A stretch of DNA of 26,645 bases from a virus, in IMG/VR virus record IMGVR_UViG_3300026097_000087, positions 1 through 26,645 of that record, one strand, 5' to 3'. The position numbers were made by a program, and so were the translations under genes. Below the pieces are notes generated by a model that was not told the DNA's origin, made no database searches, and saw nothing but the letters and a program-made list of their open reading frames with translations. Positions 1 to 18,901 of this stretch are shown piece after piece (within the stretch, counting starts at the first letter, position 1; each line of letters opens with the position of its first letter).

Positions 1-3000
1 TATTATAGTAAACATAGCCTTCCGCAGTTCTTACCCCATCAGCACCATCTGTGCCATCTGTGCCATTAGTACCATTAATACCATCTGCACCATCTGCACC
101 ATCTGCACCATCTGCGCCTTCAAAAGAGGGAGTAATACTTATGTTAAACTTAGGATTGTATTGAGTACCATCACTAGAAGTTACATATATGGATAACTCA
201 TATTGTGTAGCTTGAGTAAGATTTCCTGCAAAAGCCCCTAAAGTAGCTCCCACACTTCCAGAGCCTGTAATTGTTGGCTCTGTTAAAGTATCCCCCGAAA
301 CTTTAGTAATATTTAAATTATATCTACCGTTAGTTCCCGGATACGATGTTGTTTGAGTATTACTATTTAGTACTAGCTCTGTTGTTCCATCGAATATATT
401 TAAGTTTCCACCACTTCCAGTCCAAGTTTCTATGCCAGTATTTGTTACAGGAACTGTATGTGATTGATTGCTGTAAAAAGTTGTAATTGCATCTACACCA
501 TCGCCTCCAGCTACTCCGTCTGCTCCGTCTGCTCCGTCTGCTCCGTCTGCTCCGTCGGTACCAGGCTGTATTGCTCCCATAGTAATATGGTCTCTAGCAA
601 GTATACTGGAGCTAGTGCTGCCTTCTCTAATTTCAACTTCAATTTCGTCGGGCATACTAGAAATATTAGACTGAGGCGTATATGTGTAAGTATTGCTTGT
701 TGTATGCTGAACAGAGCTATTGTTCAAAAAGAACTTATAATATACCGTTCCGCTGGTATTATTTGCAGATGCAGTGATAGTTGTATTAGAGGGGCTAGGA
801 GAGGATCCTGCTGCAGAATATGTAAATATATTAGTTCCTGCAGTTAAATCTACAGATCTTGCGTCTGTTCCTGCAGATCCATCTGCACCATCGGCTCCCG
901 CAACTCCATCTACGCCAGCGCTTGATTTACTAAAAGTTTGCTTTTGAGTTCCTGTTACAAGATTTTCTATGTTCAAGGTATAAGTAATAACTGCAGTATC
1001 AGCAGTCATATTACTGTGATCTCCTATTGTAAAAGGATCTCCTGAAACACTTGTCGTTCCCGCAGTAATATTACTAGCACTAACACTAACCGAAAATTGT
1101 CCTGCCGTTGGAGTTCCTGTTACACTATTTAATTCTACCCCGCCTTTATATACCTCTATAGAAGTGCCTGAGTCTGAGTAGCTACTTATAGTTCCAGAGC
1201 TATCTGCAGTAAAAGAATGAGCTGCATTGGTTGTAACTACTGTATAGCCATCAATACCGTCATCTCCGTCCTCGCCATCAGCGACAAAAAATATAGAAAT
1301 TGTATCAAAAGCTATCTCTGTAGTAGAAGACTCAGCTTCTGATACCCCTACGCGAATTGTTAGCGGATTACCTGCCCACCCGGCAGTAGTAGATGGTATG
1401 CTATATGTAAAAGTATCAGTATTGCCTGTACCATCTGTATAGCTTGTTTCGTCTGTAATTCCATCACCTGTAAATTTAAAGTAAGGATCTGTAAAATTTG
1501 ACGCCGTTGCAGTAAATGTTAAGGTACCGCTTGGTGAAGGGTTTGCGCCTGTATTATCATAAACTACAGAATAATCATCTGAAGTCAATCTCACTAATTT
1601 TCCTGCATCACCTCCTGCCCCGTCTTTAACAAAAGGAATGGTAATATCAGCAGTAGATTGTTTATCTGTGTTAGTCTCATCTAACTCCTCTGCTACTGTA
1701 ACAGAGAATACTAAATCAGTTAGGCTATACTGATCTACTTTATCAAGAGTTTTTATTGCAACAAAAGTGCTATCTCCAGCAGAAAAAACAGTATCTGCTG
1801 TTTGAGATATTTCAGAGTTATTAAATCCTGCTCCCGTAAATTTAAATACAGGATTTTTGTACCCAAAAGCAGTAGCTGTTAATACAAGATTAGTATAATC
1901 TGTAGTTAAAGTCTCATCTCCATCAAAGTTAAGAAATGTAGGGTTTACAGTAAGTATTGTACTTCTTGCTAGTTTACCTAGATCTGGATTAATAATTAGA
2001 TTTACTGGGTATGCTTTAAAAGTACCTCCATCATTTCTAACAGAGTAAATTACAGAATCATCGTTCTTATTAAATCGAAACGCATTCCTATATGCTGTTA
2101 CGGAGGATATAGCAGTAGTAAAACTTTTATCTATACGAACATCCGTAGCTGAAGCAATATAAACTACTTTTGCAGCCTGAGTACTACTAAATTTGATAAT
2201 GTCTCCTACCTGTAAAGAGCTATCAAATCCACTGCCCGTAACTTTGTTTGATTCTGCAGCAACACTTACGGTTCCTATAGAAGTCCAATTACTAGTATGA
2301 GTAGTGCTTCCGGTTCCTGCATTATAAAAATATGAGTAGCCTAAGTCCTCATCTTTATAGTGTTTAATAAGTTTAAGTGGATCACTAGCATCTCCATCAA
2401 TCATTATGTAATGGGACGCAGCTTCCGCTTCATCATTAGTAAAAGTGGAAAAATCTAGAGAAGGAATATTACTGCAATCTTGTGTATATTCCGACGCAGG
2501 GCTTCCGTCAAATGTTCTTACTAATTGTGGGTTACCTGCAGGAGACAACGAGTATTCTTTGTCCTCTAAAGTAAAAGTACCTGCTGAAGTTATAAATGCA
2601 GGAGAAGATAAAACTCCTCCAAGAGCCATTCCATAGGCACGAGGAATTGCCTGCTTTGCAGGATCTTCTATTGTAAAAGTTGTTTTTGTAGCATCTGATC
2701 TTCTACCATTTTGAGCTATTGTACGAACAGCCACAGTAAAAGTACCAATAGGAAGGTCTAGTCCAGATAAGCTAGTTTGATTTCTAGGCACTTTTAGGGT
2801 ATTAGGAACCCCAGGAATATTTGAAGAAACTTCAAAATAGTCTACATAGTCATAAAAATCACCGTTTGAATCTATAGGGTTATCCCAAGATAGTACAACA
2901 TCATTTTTTACTTGTCCAGAGTTTAAGTTGCTTACTATAACATAAGCATTTTGAGGCACTGGAATAGCTTCTATCGAGTCAGGAGGGCTAAAGATAGGAT

Positions 3001-6000
3001 CTTGGATAGAAAGTACAAAATCTTCATCTATAGCATCATATTTTTCATTGTAAAATTCTACGGCAGTAATTGAATAAGTATTTTTAGAATCCTCTCCTAT
3101 AGAAAGAATCTTATACATCTTCTTAGAGCCTTTTACTTCTACGCTTGAGATACTTTCTTTAAGTACCCATATACTTTCTGAAGCTGGGGCGGCAGAAAAT
3201 GCAGAGCTAACAGTAAGAGAAGTTATTCCTGTGCCTGAGGCCGTAGAAACTGTTTGAGTCTCTACATTGGTATAAGGCTTCCAAGTTATATCTACATAAT
3301 CTCCACTATCATCCAATATGTTACTAGCTTCCGTTTCTGTATCAATAGTTGCTCCATCAATTATATCTCCGCGGGAGTAACTAACCGAATCAATAGTAGC
3401 AGAATCCTGGGCAAGAGTAGCAACGCTGTCAGTGAATAAAATGCTCAGTTCGTAATCTGACCCAGAGTTTAACTCTATTTCACGATCTAAAGGTATTGTT
3501 GTAGTATTACGAGTACCAGTATTACTTACTCGTCCACTATACTTTAAGTTTCCTGGGTAGCGATCAGAATCTTGAACATTGATAATATCACCAGGAGCTA
3601 TAAAAGCTGCATTGATTGCTGTCTTAAAAGAGATAATTTCAGTTTGATTAACAGCAGTCCATAACTTCCAGCGACCATATCGAAGTGCTTGGCCTTCTGT
3701 AGTTGCGCCAAAAGCTACGGCTTCTTCAGATATAATTCTGCCTGTATTAATAATATTATCACGGTCTTCTACTATTAAATTCTCTAGCTTATAGTTTGCA
3801 GCAGGATTATTCCAAGTTACAATTATTTGATTTGCGCGAGTTTTACTGCCAGTAGTCTCATACCCAAACGCTCCATCAATAACATTTGATTTTGAGAAAT
3901 TATAGATAGGATCACCTGGCTGATCAATTACGGTATATACTTCTCCATCCATCCAATAGATCATACTGCGGAATACAGTAGCTAGGTCTTTTACTATCTT
4001 ATAAGCATCTGAAGCTTTTGTGAAGTAAGCATTTGTTGTAAAGCGAGGCTCAAAGCCTCCATTACCATCAGGAACTAGCTCATCACAATATCTTGCAATT
4101 CGATAAAGTGCATACTTATCAATTTCATCTTCATTTAGCCAGTCTCCAAGGCCATAACGATTATTTGTAAGAATGTCATAGAATACCCATGCAGGATTAT
4201 TTGTATAAATTTTATCCGCACGGAAGCTTCCATCCCAGTCTTGATAGGATGAAGTTACTGCACCCGTAGATACGTTTCGATTGTAAGTAGCAACACTATT
4301 AACGCCTTCATCTCTTGTAATATAGTTTGAAGGTACTTTTACTTTTAAACCTTTACAATGATAGGTTCGAGTAGGAACATTTTGAAAATCCTTGGAATTT
4401 ATTCGTACCTTCGCCATCGCAGTAAGAGGGTAAGAAAGGTTTTCTTTAATAATACTATTTAAAGAACTAATAGACCCGTTAGACTGAGTAGTATAGTTAG
4501 TATTTACTCTATTTGTGCCAGAGTCATAGGCTTGATCGTTGTTTGTAGTCCTAGTTATTTTTACTTTAAAATCTGTAAAAGGTTGATATTGTCGCATATC
4601 AATTACTTCTTCAAATATACGAGGCGCGTTACTTTTTGCTAAATGTTCTACGTTTTGAGTTATGGACTGATAAGAGTCAAAGGAGCCATTTCTCTCTACA
4701 GCAACATACATATTATATCTTACAGTTGCTGCGGTCTGTTCTCCTTTTTCATTACGATTCCATAGTTGAGGATACGTAAAAGTTACTCGAATTTCATCAA
4801 CTTCTTCTGCTTGTGCAGCAGTAAGACCAAATCCTGATGCAGAAGTACCTGTATACTCAACAGTTGGATTGTCTGTTTCTCCAGAGTCAGCATATAGTAC
4901 AGGACTAAAAGCTGCAAAAGAGCCTCCTGGACCTACAGATATAGAGCCTACCCCTGTTCCAGCTGCATCAGCAAAAGCAGGCTGTATTAAGTTACCATTT
5001 CTAAATTGTACATCAAAACTGTTGTGTTTTGAACCACTAGAAACTCTATCAATAAGAGAGACAGTGTCATAGTTTGTACCACTTAAGTCACATTTATAAC
5101 TCCCGGTATCTCCTAGAAAGTTTGATGTAAGCGTTAAAGAGTTAGAAGATATAGAGCTTACTTGAAACTTTCCGTCAATAACTGTCGTATAGCTGCCATT
5201 TGATAAAGCAGGATTAATATCTGTGCCGGGTAAGGGAATACATTTAACTACGGTACTAGAAGTATAATTTTCTATATAGCCTTCGAATATTGTAATAGAG
5301 TTTGAATCGAGTAGTCTAACTATAGCTGCTGAATTAGCATTTGTTCTATCATACTCCATTGAGGGGGTAAATATTGCATTAGTAGAAGTAATTGTTACAG
5401 AATTAGCAGATCCAGTTGCGGAACTACGAACAATAGAAGATGCACTCGAAGCATAGCTTCTTACGATGATAAACTTAGTACCATTTTCAGTATCTGCTTG
5501 TATGTCTTTTGAATGCCCATTTCTATCAATAGTTACAGAAGTACTATTTAAAGTAAAGTCAAACTCTACTGGAGTTTCAGACAGTCTTACAAAACTTTGT
5601 GCAGTTACTTGAGCAGCGTCATCATTTAAAAATACAGAAGTTCCTCCATCTACTAATCCGTAGATCGGCCCTTCTGAAATAACATCAGTAAAAAGAATAT
5701 CTTGGCTATTTCTAGAAACGCTTGCGCCTGATATAGGGTCTATTACTCGCTCTATATTTCCACCATTTCTTTCCATCTGATCTTGATAATAACTTTCTAT
5801 ATCACCTTTTGGAAGATTTAGAATTTCTCCATTAAATGTTACAGTATTATCACTAGAGGTAATTCTTTTAGCTCCATGGATCATTTCAAAAGATACAGGG
5901 TATCCCGCAACGCGAAGCTCTCCATAAAGAAGAGGAACAGGCATACCCTCTACAATATTCTGCTCTGCTCCATTAAATAAGTAGCCTTCATCTTCCTCAT

Positions 6001-6454
6001 CTACGCCAGGATCTGGGGCCATAAGTTGTTGAATGCCTGTAAGAGCTAAATTTGTTGCTAAAGCCGCTGCTATATTTGCTACGCCCCCTGCGAGACCTTG
6101 AGCACTTAAACTCAATAAAGGAACTCCTGCAGGCCCTATAAAAAATAAAGAAGCAATAGCTACAGCCGCAAGAATCTTACCCGCACCAGACTTAGAGCCT
6201 GCAGCGATAGGAGTAATAATTATGTCCCCTTCTCGAAGAGGCAATATACACTCTAAAGGATTGTCAATTTCTTGTCCGCCAACTTCAATATGAAAACCAA
6301 TATCACAGTCCGTAGCATCTATAAAATATTTTTTAAATCCAGGCTTGTTCGCATCTAACAGACGCAGCGCATCTTTAACACTATCTCCGTGAAAAGAGTG
6401 CTGTGCTCCAAATTTTAAAGCGAGTTCGCCTTCAAGATAAATGTTACGTGTCAT
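1..6454 (-). CDS. Giant tail-tip protein: lambda gpI-gpJ fusion with collagen-like repeats (3' end outside window)
   Basis: At least 2151 codons are open from ATG 6454 to the left edge, where the gene is cut. Residues 1-200 resemble lambda tail assembly protein I: a beta-grasp-like N-terminus, the AGSKSG link near 85-90, two Gly/Ala-rich hydrophobic helices (93-145), MAPD at 145-148, and NIVEGMPVPLLYGELRVAGYPV near 166-187. From about 240 the gpJ core follows (DVISEGPIYGLVDGG at 257-271, then a VPSNY motif, NNRYGLGDW and CDELVPDGNGG). Fibronectin/Ig-like modules follow, then beta modules separated by G-x-D collagen-like runs. GpJ-type proteins form the central tip and fibre that bind the host. 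No internal start with a Shine-Dalgarno lies at the I/J join, so the fusion looks real. The start overlaps the gpK-like gene by 11 bases. The C-terminal receptor-binding end is not visible. Confidence 0.93.
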   Translation of the reverse strand, partial: MTRNIYLEGELALKFGAQHSFHGDSVKDALRLLDANKPGFKKYFIDATDCDIGFHIEVGGQEIDNPLECILPLREGDIIITPIAAGSKSGAGKILAAVAIASLFFIGPAGVPLLSLSAQGLAGGVANIAAALATNLALTGIQQLMAPDPGVDEEDEGYLFNGAEQNIVEGMPVPLLYGELRVAGYPVSFEMIHGAKRITSSDNTVTFNGEILNLPKGDIESYYQDQMERNGGNIERVIDPISGASVSRNSQDILFTDVISEGPIYGLVDGGTSVFLNDDAAQVTAQSFVRLSETPVEFDFTLNSTSVTIDRNGHSKDIQADTENGTKFIIVRSYASSASSIVRSSATGSANSVTITSTNAIFTPSMEYDRTNANSAAIVRLLDSNSITIFEGYIENYTSSTVVKCIPLPGTDINPALSNGSYTTVIDGKFQVSSISSNSLTLTSNFLGDTGSYKCDLSGTNYDTVSLIDRVSSGSKHNSFDVQFRNGNLIQPAFADAAGTGVGSISVGPGGSFAAFSPVLYADSGETDNPTVEYTGTSASGFGLTAAQAEEVDEIRVTFTYPQLWNRNEKGEQTAATVRYNMYVAVERNGSFDSYQSITQNVEHLAKSNAPRIFEEVIDMRQYQPFTDFKVKITRTTNNDQAYDSGTNRVNTNYTTQSNGSISSLNSIIKENLSYPLTAMAKVRINSKDFQNVPTRTYHCKGLKVKVPSNYITRDEGVNSVATYNRNVSTGAVTSSYQDWDGSFRADKIYTNNPAWVFYDILTNNRYGLGDWLNEDEIDKYALYRIARYCDELVPDGNGGFEPRFTTNAYFTKASDAYKIVKDLATVFRSMIYWMDGEVYTVIDQPGDPIYNFSKSNVIDGAFGYETTGSKTRANQIIVTWNNPAANYKLENLIVEDRDNIINTGRIISEEAVAFGATTEGQALRYGRWKLWTAVNQTEIISFKTAINAAFIAPGDIINVQDSDRYPGNLKYSGRVSNTGTRNTTTIPLDREIELNSGSDYELSILFTDSVATLAQDSATIDSVSYSRGDIIDGATIDTETEASNILDDSGDYVDITWKPYTNVETQTVSTASGTGITSLTVSSAFSAAPASESIWVLKESISSVEVKGSKKMYKILSIGEDSKNTYSITAVEFYNEKYDAIDEDFVLSIQDPIFSPPDSIEAIPVPQNAYVIVSNLNSGQVKNDVVLSWDNPIDSNGDFYDYVDYFEVSSNIPGVPNTLKVPRNQTSLSGLDLPIGTFTVAVRTIAQNGRRSDATKTTFTIEDPAKQAIPRAYGMALGGVLSSPAFITSAGTFTLEDKEYSLSPAGNPQLVRTFDGSPASEYTQDCSNIPSLDFSTFTNDEAEAASHYIMIDGDASDPLKLIKHYKDEDLGYSYFYNAGTGSTTHTSNWTSIGTVSVAAESNKVTGSGFDSSLQVGDIIKFSSTQAAKVVYIASATDVRIDKSFTTAISSVTAYRNAFRFNKNDDSVIYSVRNDGGTFKAYPVNLIINPDLGKLARSTILTVNPTFLNFDGDETLTTDYTNLVLTATAFGYKNPVFKFTGAGFNNSEISQTADTVFSAGDSTFVAIKTLDKVDQYSLTDLVFSVTVAEELDETNTDKQSTADITIPFVKDGAGGDAGKLVRLTSDDYSVVYDNTGANPSPSGTLTFTATASNFTDPYFKFTGDGITDETSYTDGTGNTDTFTYSIPSTTAGWAGNPLTIRVGVSEAESSTTEIAFDTISIFFVADGEDGDDGIDGYTVVTTNAAHSFTADSSGTISSYSDSGTSIEVYKGGVELNSVTGTPTAGQFSVSVSASNITAGTTSVSGDPFTIGDHSNMTADTAVITYTLNIENLVTGTQKQTFSKSSAGVDGVAGADGADGSAGTDARSVDLTAGTNIFTYSAAGSSPSPSNTTITASANNTSGTVYYKFFLNNSSVQHTTSNTYTYTPQSNISSMPDEIEVEIREGSTSSSILARDHITMGAIQPGTDGADGADGADGADGVAGGDGVDAITTFYSNQSHTVPVTNTGIETWTGSGGNLNIFDGTTELVLNSNTQTTSYPGTNGRYNLNITKVSGDTLTEPTITGSGSVGATLGAFAGNLTQATQYELSIYVTSSDGTQYNPKFNISITPSFEGADGADGADGADGINGTNGTDGTDGADGVRTAEGYVYYN
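82..117 (-). repeat. 9-bp tandem repeat encoding collagen-like G-A-D
   Basis: Three identical 9-base units (catctgcac on the plus strand) and one variant lie in tandem. In frame on the minus strand they encode repeated Gly-Ala-Asp, followed by Gly-x-x units with Asn and Thr. This is a collagen-like stretch of the tail-tip protein. Confidence 0.9.
514..558 (-). repeat. 9-bp tandem repeat encoding collagen-like G-A-D
   Basis: Four identical units (ctccgtctg on the plus strand) and a fifth with one change lie in tandem. They encode Gly-Ala-Asp repeats between two beta modules of the tail-tip protein. The near-identity of the units contrasts with the degenerate G-x-D runs elsewhere in the gene, suggesting recent slipped-strand expansion. 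Confidence 0.9.
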
Positions 6455-7133
6455 ATCGGTATATTCCAGTTAAATACTTTTTCCATAAAGGATATAAGTT
6501 TTCTCTACAAGAGAGCCTATTTACGGCATGATGAAAGAAAACATCATTACCTATATAGACCCCGCAATGGTTAGGAACTAGCGCTCCCATTGTAAATATT
6601 AATAAATCATGGGGCTGTAAATCTTCAACTTTAACAAAGCCCCATTCTTTTATATGATCGTCAGTAAAATAATTATGTCCATGCTCCCACCAGTCGTCTA
6701 AGTAGGGCAATCTATTCTCTAAAGTTATACTAAGAGTTTCTTTATAGTAATCTTTACACGCTTCAAGACAGTCGAATTTACCAAACTCATATTCTCGTCC
6801 TGTTAAAGCATTTACTTTTATTTCTGGCTCTAGTATATTTAATTGCATATCTGGGTAGCTAAAAATATAGTAAGATATACCTAAAGAGTTACAATATTTT
6901 TTATCGTTGTCACTTGCTTCATTTGTCCAATCTATATGATTATGGACTATTGCGAAGATATCCGCGCGCCTCTTTACCGAAATATAGTCTGTTGGATCGA
7001 GTATAAAATCTTCATTTTCTTTTGCTAAGTTTCTACAGGGAAAATATTGCTTTTTACCTTTTACTATACCAATTATACCGCACGCTTCTCGAGGAAACTC
7101 CTTTTCAAAGTGCCACTGAATATCATCAATCAT
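6444..7133 (-). CDS. Lambda gpK-like tail-tip protein: JAB/JAMM peptidase + NlpC/P60 domain
   Basis: Two enzyme domains lie in 229 residues. The N-terminal JAB domain keeps the whole JAMM signature: Glu16 in REACG, His64-x-His66, then Ser74-x-x-Asp77 at canonical spacing, with Ile instead of Pro after the second His. The C-terminal half is NlpC/P60-like, with Cys122 in KFDC, His189 in PNHCGVYIG and a His-rich third site near 201-202. Lambda gpK has the same order and acts late in tail-tip assembly; P60 domains cut peptidoglycan, which may help DNA entry. The start overlaps the gpL-like stop as ATGA, and the gene ends 11 bases inside the gpI-gpJ fusion. Both active sites appear intact. Confidence 0.92.
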   Translation of the reverse strand: MIDDIQWHFEKEFPREACGIIGIVKGKKQYFPCRNLAKENEDFILDPTDYISVKRRADIFAIVHNHIDWTNEASDNDKKYCNSLGISYYIFSYPDMQLNILEPEIKVNALTGREYEFGKFDCLEACKDYYKETLSITLENRLPYLDDWWEHGHNYFTDDHIKEWGFVKVEDLQPHDLLIFTMGALVPNHCGVYIGNDVFFHHAVNRLSCRENLYPLWKKYLTGIYRYDT

Positions 7134-8131
7134 CTAAACTTTCTACTTCCTATAAATGCTCCGAAAGGTAATATTTTGCCTGTATTTTTCTCAGTAGAAG
7201 GATCTGAATTACTGCTACCAGCAGATTGAGGTTTGAATTGGAATCTACATTTACAAGAAGATAGCTTTTTGCCGCATACATCTCCTTTTGACCAATAAAT
7301 AGAATTTAAACCAGGAGCATTTCCTGTGCTCGCAAGAGTACATTTCCATACTGTTGTTTGGTTTCCGTCATCATACTCTACGTAATCACCTACTGAGTAG
7401 CCAGTGCTAGCGCTATAAGTAGTATAAGTTTTATATTGTCCCACTGTCCAGCCCGTCATTGTAGCGCTAGAAGGGACTACTGGTTCGTCGTCTTCTGTAA
7501 AATATGCTTTATGCGTATTGACCCCGCCAGAGCCATCTGCGTAAGAAACTGTACTATCTTTATCCCATATACAACCACCTTTTTGATCTAAGCTATACCC
7601 TTGGTACTGCCAAGAACAATATTTTCCTATAACTTTCCTGTTGGGCAAAGTTATTCCTTCTAAGTCATAGGGAGCGGCAAGCTCATAAGTTACAGCAGTA
7701 TTAGTTTCTCCAGAAATTCTATCAATAATAAATTTACGTATTGGAAACTCTATGGGAGGACTAGCGTCTCCTGTTTCTCCGTATAAGTATTTTTTAAGAG
7801 TAGTTCTTTTTGTAAGTCTTTCTCCTACTAAATTTTCTGCCTTAATATTGCCAAGAGCTGCAGAAAACGTATTTGCTACATTTGCAACTGTTAGGCTTGG
7901 CCTATTAATAGCACCATCAGCCCCTAGCTCTACCCCTTCCATTATAATAGGAAAAGCTGTGTACTCTCTTACAGTATAAGGACTAGTACGCTCTCTAAAC
8001 TGAACGCTGCTTAAATCTTCTTCTAAGCCTGAATGAAAGTATAAAATTGTACCATCTATAGTAAGCTCATACAGCTCTACTAATTCACTTCCAGGCTCTA
8101 ATAGTTGTACTGCTTCAATTAATTCACTCAT
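7130..8131 (-). CDS. Lambda gpL-like minor tail protein with inserted carbohydrate-binding-like module
   Basis: The first 190 residues follow the gpL pattern: a hub-like domain with INRPSLTVANV near 76-85, then LPNRKVIGKYCSWQYQG (162-178). Lambda gpL binds an iron-sulfur cluster through four cysteines; likely equivalents are C172, C187, C286 and C293, the last pair keeping lambda's seven-residue interval (CGKKLSSC). About 75 extra residues lie between the second and third cysteine. There, 228-281 reads as an aromatic-rich small beta module (GYSVGDYVEY, VWKCTLASTGNAP, YWSKGD) like CBM5/12 chitin-binding modules. At 333 aa it is clearly longer than lambda gpL. It overlaps the genes on both sides as ATGA. 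The family call is firm; the CBM call is by pattern only. Confidence 0.9.
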   Translation of the reverse strand: MSELIEAVQLLEPGSELVELYELTIDGTILYFHSGLEEDLSSVQFRERTSPYTVREYTAFPIIMEGVELGADGAINRPSLTVANVANTFSAALGNIKAENLVGERLTKRTTLKKYLYGETGDASPPIEFPIRKFIIDRISGETNTAVTYELAAPYDLEGITLPNRKVIGKYCSWQYQGYSLDQKGGCIWDKDSTVSYADGSGGVNTHKAYFTEDDEPVVPSSATMTGWTVGQYKTYTTYSASTGYSVGDYVEYDDGNQTTVWKCTLASTGNAPGLNSIYWSKGDVCGKKLSSCKCRFQFKPQSAGSSNSDPSTEKNTGKILPFGAFIGSRKFR

Positions 8132-8511
8132 GGTTCATAAACTCTTTTAAATACTGCTGATACTGAATAAAACCCATCATAGTTATAGCTTTGATTATAA
8201 GTTTGACATACTACTTTAATCGCTAATTCATCTCCTGAAGCATTATCATCTGGTATTGTATAAGTAAATGAAGTTGCTCCCTTTAAAGAAGCAAAATATC
8301 CAGTTATATCGTCTATCTCTGCTGCGGAACGATTGTTAAAAGTTACGCTAAATACTTCGTCCACAGAGTTAATACCATCGGCAATACGTTGTTCATATCC
8401 ATCTCCAAATTTAGCTACTAAAACTCGTGGATTAGACTGTCTTGCTATACCTCTATCTGGAGAAATTGTACGACTTCCATAAGTTGCTGATGTTGTAAAT
8501 CCTAGTGCCAT
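8128..8511 (-). CDS. Lambda gpM-like minor tail protein (distal tail)
   Basis: A 127-aa beta-rich protein between the tape measure and the gpL-like gene, exactly where lambda M lies. FGDGYEQRIADGIN near residues 35-48 is typical of the gpM / phage-related COG4718 family, as is the later FTYTIPD. Such proteins form the ring at the distal end of the tail tube that receives the tip. The start codon overlaps the tape-measure stop as TAATG, and the stop overlaps the gpL start as ATGA, so translation is probably coupled. No odd residues or truncation are visible. Confidence 0.88.
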   Translation of the reverse strand: MALGFTTSATYGSRTISPDRGIARQSNPRVLVAKFGDGYEQRIADGINSVDEVFSVTFNNRSAAEIDDITGYFASLKGATSFTYTIPDDNASGDELAIKVVCQTYNQSYNYDGFYSVSAVFKRVYEP

Positions 8512-13301: not shown

Positions 13302-14423
13302 CTATGCTCCTTTATAAGTTAGAACAACTTCGTCTGTCTCATCAATAGTGCTTGGTAGCGCATTGAAGTTTGTCTCAAGTGAGATAACGTCCTCAATAGA
13401 GTGAGTAGGAATATCAAGGTGAGCTGTTGTCATAGCAAGATTAAAGAAAGGTGCAGTAGTTCCACCTACCTTAAACGTAAGAGCAAAAGAATTTGTAACA
13501 ACATTTGTTATTGACCTAACATCTTCGAAGAAGTCTGTAGACTTATTAGTTGCTGAAGTATCTTTTAACAAGTAACAAGTAAAGCTACCAGAAACGGCTC
13601 TGCCTCCAGTTACATGGCCTACAGGAACATTTACTATACCAAGCTCTTCTGGAGTAATGTAAGTAATATTATTACTAATCGTAATATTACCACCCGTTAA
13701 AGTCAAATCATACGATGCTTCTAGCTCATCAGTAGAATCCCCGTCTGGATCTTGGCTAGTAGGTACAATTGTGAGCTGCGTTAGGCGATTACGAATAAAA
13801 TTATCTGTATCGGTAATAGCCTCAGTAACAGTAGCAGTAGGCTCACCACTTGCAGTATCATCAGTAACTTCTGATGCAAAGCCCGACCAATCAATCATTG
13901 CAATACCATCGATTTCAAAATTGATTGTTGCTTCGTTTACAACTGCGCTTGATAGCTTATAGACTTTCTTGTTTGCATCGCCTACAACAAAGTAAATACT
14001 TGCAGTACCTAGTGTAGACTTATTTGAGCTATCAAAATCAATATTCAAGTCTGTAGTATCTGCAGTAAAGCCTGTGAAAGTATTTGACGCATAAGCAGCA
14101 TCACCTGCCATTAGTGCCCACAATACTTCTTCTACTGCGTGATGGTTTGCCGCTGTATCTGCCGCACCCGTACCAGTTCCTGCAGATATGAAAGGACGTA
14201 CATACGTAGAAAATGACCATTCAGCAGGAGCCAAAGAGTCATTAAATGCGCGACGACCACGCTTACTGTTGCCGGCTGAGTCTTCCATCTCTGAAAGAGC
14301 TATTTCAGATACATTTGTAGCCTGAGAAAAACTAAAACCATCGAGCACAGGGATTTCCCATACTGCAGCGCCTATCTCAACATATACTTTCGTATCTCGG
14401 CTAAAATATAATTGTTGTGCCAT
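13302..14423 (-). CDS. Major tail (tube) protein
   Basis: A 373-aa protein rich in Thr, Ser, Ala and Asp, with few Lys or Cys and mostly beta structure. The start MAQQLYFSRDTKVYVEIGAAVWEIPVLDGFSFSQ and later FSTYVRP are typical of tube proteins of lambda-like phages that need no added Ig domain for the core fold. It lies between the tail terminator and the chaperone, the standard place. A strong ribosome site (TAGGAGACAATAATG) precedes it and a hairpin terminator follows, as expected for a protein made in hundreds of copies. Its length exceeds lambda gpV. The middle (about residues 110-260) may hold an inserted surface domain. I call it from composition and order, not from a catalytic motif. 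Confidence 0.83.
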   Translation of the reverse strand: MAQQLYFSRDTKVYVEIGAAVWEIPVLDGFSFSQATNVSEIALSEMEDSAGNSKRGRRAFNDSLAPAEWSFSTYVRPFISAGTGTGAADTAANHHAVEEVLWALMAGDAAYASNTFTGFTADTTDLNIDFDSSNKSTLGTASIYFVVGDANKKVYKLSSAVVNEATINFEIDGIAMIDWSGFASEVTDDTASGEPTATVTEAITDTDNFIRNRLTQLTIVPTSQDPDGDSTDELEASYDLTLTGGNITISNNITYITPEELGIVNVPVGHVTGGRAVSGSFTCYLLKDTSATNKSTDFFEDVRSITNVVTNSFALTFKVGGTTAPFFNLAMTTAHLDIPTHSIEDVISLETNFNALPSTIDETDEVVLTYKGA

Positions 14424-14435
14424 TATTGTCTCCTA
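14419..14435 (-). repeat. Duplicated ribosome-binding cassette (copy before the major tail gene)
   Basis: The 17 bases TAGGAGACAATAATGGC (minus strand) are identical to 14948-14932 in front of the tail terminator gene. They contain AGGAGA, a good spacer and the start ATG. Confidence 0.85.
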
Positions 14436-14483
14436 TAATCTTGAAAAGACTTGGACTTGAACGTTTGTTCGTGCCAGTATTTT

Positions 14484-16912: not shown

Positions 16913-18286
16913 TTAAGCCGCAGTAACGATCTTAACCGCTGAACGATTGCCCGCTGTATCAGCAACAAGCTCTTCGAAACCGAGAGACTGAGTTGCAACG
17001 ATAACACGACGCTGATTACCAACTTCGTAATCCTGCTCTACTGCAACACCACGTAGACGTGGGATAGCGTAGTTGCGTGTGTTAACAGCAAATGCCGCAG
17101 GTACTGGAGTACTGCCATCACCTTCTGCAGCGAAGCTGTCAGAAACGATAACAGGTGAGCCATAAACTGCACCGATTGCACCAGTAATCTTAGTAGCGAT
17201 ATCAGAACCTACATCAGTAATGTCGGCAAAACCTGAATCTTCGATAAGCTCGTAGTAACGTGCCTGAGAAACGATGTACGCAACGTCAGTTGGGTTAATA
17301 CCATACTTACCCATGTCTTTACGTGCTGCAAGTAGCTTAGCTGCAGTAAGAGCCTCACCATCGGAGATGTCGAGAGCGTCTGCATTAGCAGTTGCGTAGC
17401 CAGTAAGACCAGTGATTGAACCAGCACCATTAATGATAGCACCATCAACCGCACGAGCGTGTGCACGAGCAACTGAATCAACAAGCATAGGCATCAGGTT
17501 GACAAGAACTTCTTCGTCTACATGGTTGTCCATGAAAGTCTGAGAGATCAGACGATAAGCGTTGAGAATAACCTGTGAAGGCTTGTAAGTGTTGTCAGAG
17601 GCATCACGATTCTCAAGGTTACCAGCAGCTGCCGCACCAGTTTGGAAAGTTGCAGCTTCAACATCAGGCTGAATTGGTAGTACAGTTGCTGCACCATTTA
17701 CCTGGATTTCACGGAACAGACCAGCAGTACGGAGGTTAAGAGTAACTTCCTTCTCGATCATACGTGAAACTTCTTGATCGATATCGCCAGCGTTAGTAGC
17801 ATAATCAATGCCAGCCTTCTGCATTACGCCCTGTGCAAAGTTAGTGTTCATACCTTTGCCAGTCATAACACCTAGAAGATGTGCGTGCATGAAGTCCTGG
17901 CCCCACTTGGAGAGGTCGCCAGTTGCGCCACGGTCAGAGAAAGTACGCTTAGAGTCACGCATTTTGGCAAGCTCTTCGCTCTTCTCTTCGAGTTCTTTCT
18001 TGAAAGAATTAAGAACTTCGTTGTAGTTAGCATCTTTCTCAGCAAGCTTTTCTTCGAGGTCTTTTTCAAGACGCTCGGCACCAGACTCAACAGCAGTAAC
18101 TACTGCAGCCTTGACTTGCTCTTCCTGAGCTACTTTAGCTTCTGCTTCTGCAGCAGCTTTTTCTTGTTCAGCTTTTTCAGCTGCTTTCTGCTCGGCTTGC
18201 TTCATTGCGATATTAGCAGCAGTTTGCTCCGCTACTTTTTTAGCAAAAGCTTCCAAGTCGATTTCTGGAGTATTAACTTCAGACAT
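16913..18286 (-). CDS. Major capsid protein, possible separate product from an internal start
   Basis: ATG 18286 is codon 206 of the protease-capsid gene, in frame. AGGAG lies six bases before it (18297-18293), as good a ribosome site as any in the window. Starting here gives 457 aa: a charged Ala/Glu/Lys coiled coil (206-315 of the long form) like the HK97 delta/scaffold domain, then an HK97-fold capsid core from about 320. That would let the phage make capsid subunits in large excess over protease, which a strict fusion cannot do. Whether the start is used cannot be told from sequence alone. Confidence 0.62.
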   Translation of the reverse strand: MSEVNTPEIDLEAFAKKVAEQTAANIAMKQAEQKAAEKAEQEKAAAEAEAKVAQEEQVKAAVVTAVESGAERLEKDLEEKLAEKDANYNEVLNSFKKELEEKSEELAKMRDSKRTFSDRGATGDLSKWGQDFMHAHLLGVMTGKGMNTNFAQGVMQKAGIDYATNAGDIDQEVSRMIEKEVTLNLRTAGLFREIQVNGAATVLPIQPDVEAATFQTGAAAAGNLENRDASDNTYKPSQVILNAYRLISQTFMDNHVDEEVLVNLMPMLVDSVARAHARAVDGAIINGAGSITGLTGYATANADALDISDGEALTAAKLLAARKDMGKYGINPTDVAYIVSQARYYELIEDSGFADITDVGSDIATKITGAIGAVYGSPVIVSDSFAAEGDGSTPVPAAFAVNTRNYAIPRLRGVAVEQDYEVGNQRRVIVATQSLGFEELVADTAGNRSAVKIVTAA

Positions 18287-18901
18287 TTTGATCTCCTGTT
18301 GTGCGGGTAATTCCGCCTTTTCCGGTGTGTCACTAGCTACGCTAGAGGTATTGACCTCGTCCTTAGCCAGAGTCTGACCGGCTAGATCTACACGATTTGT
18401 GAAAGTTTTCTTGAATTCTTCGTACTCTGACATAGAGTCAAAAGACTTCGCCAAAGAAAAAGTAGCTGCCTGATTGCAAGGAACGGAAACAACCGAAACT
18501 TCAAACAACTCAGCGTCCTTAATCATCAATCCGTCGGTTTCCTGGATATAATCAGCGTCCTTGACTCGGAAACCAACTGAAAAGGCTCCAAGAACACCGT
18601 CTTTTACGAGTTCGCAAACTGCTGCGGGAGCAGATTTGCTAATTTTTGCTTCAAGTTCCAATCCGTTAGGGCCTACTTTCAACCCCGTAGCGCGACCGAT
18701 TGGCTTGTCATAATCATGATTAAAAAGAATAATAGGATTCTTTTCAAAGTTTGCAAGACCACCTTTTGTCCATGCCTCATGAGAGATAGAATCCCCCGCA
18801 CGATCAAAATCGGCAGTACTTGCCATGCCACGAATCATTACGCTGCCGTCTTCTGCTGCGTGAGATTTGAATGTGGATGTTAAATTAAATATCTTTTCCA
18901 T
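16913..18901 (-). CDS. Prohead protease fused to HK97-fold major capsid protein
   Basis: One open frame of 662 aa carries two functions that HK97 keeps in two genes. Residues 1-155 are an S78/U35-type prohead protease: MIRGMASTADFDRAGD, catalytic His62 in LFNHDYDKPIG, Ser108 in GAFSVGF, and ELFEVSVVSVP (131-141) with the acidic residue. After a linker, 206-315 is a coiled coil rich in Ala, Glu and Lys, the likely scaffold (delta) domain. From about 320 comes the capsid: SKWGQDFMHAHLLG, IDQEVSRMIEKEVTL, INGAGSITGLTGY, KYGINPTDVAYIVS, GSPVIVSDSF. The protease would cut itself and the delta domain away near 315-325. The capsid half is noticeably richer in preferred G/C-ending codons than its neighbours, as in highly expressed genes. 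A UUCG terminator follows. The start overlaps the preceding gene. Confidence 0.95.
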   Translation of the reverse strand: MEKIFNLTSTFKSHAAEDGSVMIRGMASTADFDRAGDSISHEAWTKGGLANFEKNPIILFNHDYDKPIGRATGLKVGPNGLELEAKISKSAPAAVCELVKDGVLGAFSVGFRVKDADYIQETDGLMIKDAELFEVSVVSVPCNQAATFSLAKSFDSMSEYEEFKKTFTNRVDLAGQTLAKDEVNTSSVASDTPEKAELPAQQEIKMSEVNTPEIDLEAFAKKVAEQTAANIAMKQAEQKAAEKAEQEKAAAEAEAKVAQEEQVKAAVVTAVESGAERLEKDLEEKLAEKDANYNEVLNSFKKELEEKSEELAKMRDSKRTFSDRGATGDLSKWGQDFMHAHLLGVMTGKGMNTNFAQGVMQKAGIDYATNAGDIDQEVSRMIEKEVTLNLRTAGLFREIQVNGAATVLPIQPDVEAATFQTGAAAAGNLENRDASDNTYKPSQVILNAYRLISQTFMDNHVDEEVLVNLMPMLVDSVARAHARAVDGAIINGAGSITGLTGYATANADALDISDGEALTAAKLLAARKDMGKYGINPTDVAYIVSQARYYELIEDSGFADITDVGSDIATKITGAIGAVYGSPVIVSDSFAAEGDGSTPVPAAFAVNTRNYAIPRLRGVAVEQDYEVGNQRRVIVATQSLGFEELVADTAGNRSAVKIVTAA
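18284..18297 (-). promoter_or_regulatory. Internal Shine-Dalgarno and ATG for a free capsid protein
   Basis: AGGAG at 18297-18293, a six-base gap, then in-frame ATG 18286-18284, all within the coding sequence and exactly at the protease/delta-domain border. The underlying codons do not need this sequence, since the linker is otherwise low in conservation. Confidence 0.65.

Follow-up and report, generated by a model that had tools for sequence, protein, structure and literature searches.

The window, by which we mean the whole stretch of DNA that was analysed, is a phage contig of 26,645 bases with siphophage morphogenesis genes on the minus strand, and its tail end follows the lambda-type gene order M-L-K-IJ on that strand. 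A gpM-like minor tail protein (8128-8511; PF05939 match) and a gpL-like minor tail protein (7130-8131; PF05100 match) are followed by a gpK-like protein of 229 aa with JAB and NlpC/P60 domains (6444-7133), recognised from Pfam, PHROG and an AlphaFold2 model, and by an open reading frame in which gpI and gpJ are fused (2-6454). This last frame begins with an ATG at 6454, so that its first 11 bases also belong to the end of K, and continues for 2151 codons without a stop up to the edge of the window, so that the protein, of at least 2151 aa, is incomplete. A second fusion of genes which are often separate lies elsewhere in the window, where a single ORF of 662 aa (16913-18901, minus strand) combines the domains of a prohead serine protease (residues 22-157, PF04586) and a major capsid protein (residues 414-622, PF05065).

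The fused tail protein and its neighbour gpK

The joining of gpI to gpJ in one frame, which had been proposed from the sequence, was confirmed by profile searches. With the first 320 aa as query, phrog_32 (tail assembly protein I) is matched at E 1.6e-29 over residues 2-191; residues 548-1258 match phrog_31/1727, central fibre J, with a further phrog_31 match at 74-283. The fusion is not an assembly error, since numerous independent contigs from metagenomes contain the same frame in fused form.

Five parts follow one another along the chain, all encoded on the minus strand. The N-terminal ubiquitin-like (Ubl) beta-grasp domain (residues 1-84; 6203-6454) is assigned from homology to the N-terminus of lambda gpI and from predicted strands and helices. 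It is followed by the flexible linker AGSKSG (residues 85-90; 6185-6202; pLDDT <50), a published candidate cleavage region, and by hydrophobic helices and the gpI plug region (residues 91-193; 5876-6184), aligned with lambda gpI. A variable I/J linker (residues 194-250; 5705-5875; pLDDT <50) leads into the gpJ-like hub and central fibre, which extends from residue 251 onward (2-5704, incomplete) and is supported by Pfam, PHROG and structural matches. The protein aligns to lambda gpI without interruption, beginning in the Ubl domain and passing AGSKSG (AGAKSG in lambda) up to the plug motif GxxxPxLYGxxR. The gpI part has the Ubl domain, the glycine-containing linker and the C-terminal plug with GxxxPxLYG which characterise TAPI; instead of having its own gene between K and J, it shares one ORF with gpJ, and the product is a TAPI-TAPJ fusion, with I and J in one polypeptide. 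The gpJ part carries PF13550 (Phage-tail_3) and PF24801 (FNIII-A) and matches lambda gpJ structurally, in keeping with an HDII/HDIII/FNIII hub.

In an AlphaFold2 model of residues 1-1000, built from 44 sequences and of modest confidence (mean pLDDT 64), the elements within 1-84 are ordered as in a beta-grasp. Confidence is low at 85-90 and again at 194-248; between these stretches the model has two helices (90-104 and 123-145) and strands (175-193), and gpJ follows from 251. The fusion stood as originally predicted, and the start of gpJ, first placed at about residue 240, was moved to near residue 251. Foldseek matched the model to gpJ of lambda (8xcg, 8iyk, 8k35), gp33 of T1 (9l9p) and gpJ of Ur-lambda (9e7m), as well as to the Sf11 hub (9occ) over 863 alignment columns. 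In comparison with lambda gpJ, an insertion of about 270 residues precedes FNIII-A (approximately residues 285-545; approximately 4820-5600, minus strand), and relatives with a separate J likewise have a long N-terminal stretch at this site. In a distal portion of the fused fibre, 9-base tandem repeats (window positions 36-122 and 514-556) encode Gly-x-y-like collagen stretches.

In gpK, Pfam detects Prok-JAB at residues 7-93 (27.7 bits, against a cut-off of 25) and NLPC_P60 (PF00877) at residues 112-225. Direct reading gives the JAMM residues E16, H64, H66, S74 and D77 (6903-7088, minus strand); Glu16, His64, His66 and Asp77 had been named beforehand and are in place, and S74 fills the serine position of the complete pattern E-x(n)-HxH-x7-S-x2-D. 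All five are invariant in the alignment of relatives, among which the NlpC/P60 residues C122 and H189 are also conserved. The AlphaFold2 model of gpK (mean pLDDT 76) has as its best PDB matches Pyrococcus JAMM1, both on its own (5ld9) and in complex with the ubiquitin-like SAMP2 (5lda).

Fusion and the JAMM motif among relatives

The gathered loci yielded 234 distinct gpI homologues, with 28 fused to J, 184 separate and 22 cut off. The residues E-H-H-S-D were found in all 26 of the fused relatives with a complete gpK, the remaining two of the 28 being contig fragments. They were likewise found in 156/184 of the separate-I relatives, with E-H-H-T-D in another 3/184; most of the rest were lost to contig ends or had no K within reach. 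GSKSG or a near form also occurs in fused and separate relatives alike, and AGxKSG is found in lambda as well. The intact JAMM is therefore the ancestral state and unassociated with fusion, and the idea that it tracks fusion was rejected, as separate relatives keep it too. Retention of the JAMM and AGSKSG in essentially the whole fused clade means that the JAB domain of gpK probably performs catalysis. The original prediction was built on the pairing of a Ubl domain and a JAB with all its catalytic residues; this pairing is real and strongly conserved, and a relation between the two is plausible (PMC1779556). The step from fusion to processing is unsupported, the JAMM being equally intact where I and J are separate.

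In a tree of gpK the fused forms make up one clade, apart from two single contigs (L022 and L199). Frameshifts of 1-2 bases account for the apparent split of the fusion in these contigs, and a genuine re-splitting was rejected. The marine clade thus represents one fusion event and offers no repeated instances of co-evolution. A fused protein of 1402 aa with a JAB-NlpC gpK, independent of this clade, is found in an alphaproteobacterial genome (L331). Among the separate forms, the gpI of L077, L078 and L080 is about 521 aa long, twice the usual length, and lies between K and J. Loci L126, L133, L136, L140, L144, L154, L156, L165, L169 and L186 have a canonical gpI with no gpK match in the fetched flank.

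The lambda reference itself (NC_001416; L100) presents a peculiarity, in that the JAB half of gpK is split across two reading frames near 14,267, with Prok-JAB pieces at 14139-14252 and 14258-14443, and the annotated 199-aa gpK is without the JAMM glutamate. One extra base is present at this site in nearly all lambda-like loci covering it with both flanks aligned, including eight near-identical copies. The missing glutamate probably reflects an error in the reference or a difference of one base between strains; the reading that laboratory lambda has no JAMM glutamate and that the JAB is dispensable was rejected, as the one-base difference is rarely shared by lambda-like sequences. Contigs with a lambda-identical gpI (L109-L117), several of them of about 48.5 kb, occur in assemblies of unrelated bacteria, including Streptomyces, Neobacillus, Paenibacillus, Shewanella, Leeuwenhoekiella and others, and are probably sequencing-control contamination.

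It had been set beforehand that fused homologues lacking the JAMM residues would refute processing, and by this measure the strong form of the hypothesis, in which fusion always goes with an intact JAMM, fails. A survey of bacterial genomes revealed plug-J fusions without a match to the canonical lambda-type Ubl, in which the plug and the hub come after an N-terminal domain whose ends are ThiS-like and which in many cases leads into a glycine run. Pfam ThiS matches in these JAB-less fused proteins are weak, below the cut-off (E 4e-4 to 2e-2), and the profile comparison by hhalign reaches a probability of 98% over a stretch which begins where the beta-grasp ends and includes the plug. They are best described as distant fused proteins with a divergent ThiS-like N-terminus, weakly matched by sequence, and an earlier reading of the profile searches, by which the Ubl had been lost along with the JAB, was rejected. 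Named phages with such a protein are phiAxp-1, BcepGomr, JWX, Donnerlittchen and Barton. In these five the gene upstream has only an NLPC_P60 match, weak in phiAxp-1 and Donnerlittchen, and no JAB match; no Prok-JAB was detected anywhere in the five genomes or in that of Sf11, with the lambda control found. Prophages L333-L338 and L341 also encode fused proteins without a JAB, with host Prok-JAB matches elsewhere in the genomes.

Fate of the I/J junction and of the ubiquitin-like domain

Across the fused clade, 69-104 aa lie between the final motif of gpI and the opening motif of gpJ. No recurring sequence or site was found in this linker, which does not have the appearance of a conserved site of processing. 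As originally noted, there is no ribosome site at the join: none of the in-frame ATGs at residues 171, 191 and 227 has a well-placed Shine-Dalgarno site. The point is correct but carries little weight, as several genuine start codons of the window, among them those of IJ, L and M, likewise have no clear one. An internal start of gpJ was set aside for want of such a site, which is not decisive.

It had further been suggested that the whole gpI part might be cut away from gpJ. A cut by either the JAB or the NlpC/P60 domain would restore a lambda-like pair of chains, and both peptidase domains look intact and the linker at 194-250 is predicted to be disordered. However, JAMM enzymes act at the C-termini of ubiquitin-like proteins rather than in linkers of this kind, and the linker varies in length and sequence. 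Fused homologues exist without a JAB, and the natural fusion gp14 of Sf11 (828 aa) is modelled in the virion as one chain, 81-827, from plug to hub (PMC12724387), which shows that a fused plug and hub can stay one chain in a working tail. In lambda virions gpI is present and gpK is not detected, and residues 135-223 of gpI build a tripod inside the lumen which plugs the tube (PMC10721106). As the plug stays in the virion, no cut is needed at the I/J join, and removal of the whole gpI part is extremely improbable.

The fusion probably does no more than tether the plug to the hub. In the ancestor of a single clade of marine phages, the I and J genes of a lambda-type module were joined into one, giving a tail hub and central fibre which carries its own plug. 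Along this chain the Ubl domain would sit on a flexible GSKSG linker, followed by two hydrophobic helices, the plug with the beta-strands threading the hub, the variable linker and the gpJ hub and fibre; the fusion would fix the plug:hub stoichiometry at 3:3, and gpK would be an assembly factor here just as it is in relatives whose I and J are separate. For the phage of the window, we infer a tethered plug and no cleavage at the junction.

A cut further upstream is a different matter. If the JAB of gpK cut off the Ubl near AGSKSG (85-90) during tail assembly, virion plug-hub chains would start at about residue 90. This release was predicted in print by Iyer et al. in 2006, who identified the gpI Ubl domain and its glycine and proposed that the JAB probably frees the domain at the terminal glycine (PMC1779556). 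The complete JAMM in every fused relative with a complete K, the match of the gpK fold to that of a JAMM in complex with a ubiquitin-like protein and the conservation of GxKSG beside the end of the Ubl are all consistent with it. In one study of lambda, gpI is resolved only from residue 101 (PMC11101478), directly past AGAKSGG (95-101). Against this, the equal conservation in separate-I relatives implies no fusion-specific role, and JAB-less fused relatives live. The first 80 residues of Sf11 gp14 are also unmodelled, and their profile match is beta-grasp-like (probability 93%, against 33% for the best of 100 shuffles). Because the same gap is seen in Sf11, in whose genome no JAB was detected, missing Ubl density in tail structures is not evidence of JAB cleavage; flexibility explains it, and the comparison narrows the question. 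Release near AGSKSG has a small but real chance of being correct and is compatible with a plug tethered to the hub. The fuller proposal for the marine clade, in which the JAB would free the Ubl at GSKSG and leave a plug-hub chain, making the fused protein a self-contained precursor and gpK an enzyme with its substrate attached, so that Ubl, plug and hub would be produced at 1:1:1, is unlikely. Ubl release is in any case the proposal of 2006 and independent of the fusion.

The JAB might instead target another substrate, e.g. host-made ubiquitin-like conjugates on the central fibre, and serve counter-defence rather than tail maturation. Bacterial ubiquitin-like conjugation of the phage central tail fibre, in Bil-type defence, has been reported (Hor et al. 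2024, as cited in PMC11364771), and the JAB is kept regardless of fusion. The near-universal presence of a JAB beside canonical gpI in lambda-type modules suggests, on the contrary, a core assembly role, and counter-defence is accordingly improbable.

Comparison with known tail systems

Since 2006 it has been a standing question which role the Ubl domain and the JAB peptidase play in tails of the lambda type, and a literature search found no paper testing the processing of gpK or gpI. Proteins of the fused clade would be convenient substrates for a test, as any cut would alter the size of a large and easily seen protein.

Lambda (NC_001416) shares with the window the gene order M-L-K-I-J, a gpK with JAB and NlpC, full-length homology of gpI and gpJ, and AGxKSG. 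It differs in that K, I and J are separate CDSs, as the original prediction had said. In T1, residues 92-163 of the 199 of gp34 were modelled (PMC11945409). The hubs of Sf11 (gp14/BH2P; 9occ chain E), phiAxp-1, BcepGomr and JWX resemble the window in joining a beta-grasp-like N-terminus, plug and hub in one chain, but they have a divergent N-terminal domain, a JAB-less genome and an adjacent peptidase which is NlpC-only or absent. The hub pb3 of T5 also includes a plug domain within the hub polypeptide (PMC10721106), but the plug is inserted inside the hub and there is no Ubl domain.

TAPI-TAPJ fusions were already reported in 2006, and a remark in Table 1 of that study, placed after the TAPI-TAPJ and TAPI-JAB fusions, states that their NlpC domains are almost always without a JAB (PMC1779556). 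Both the I-J fusion and the idea of JAB processing are therefore already published. Those fusions likewise join a Ubl-containing I to J, whereas the clade described here keeps a complete JAB-NlpC gpK. What is new is this marine clade, in which fusion coexists with a complete JAB-NlpC gpK, together with the count showing that the JAMM is independent of fusion and the JAB-less fused proteins with a structural example.
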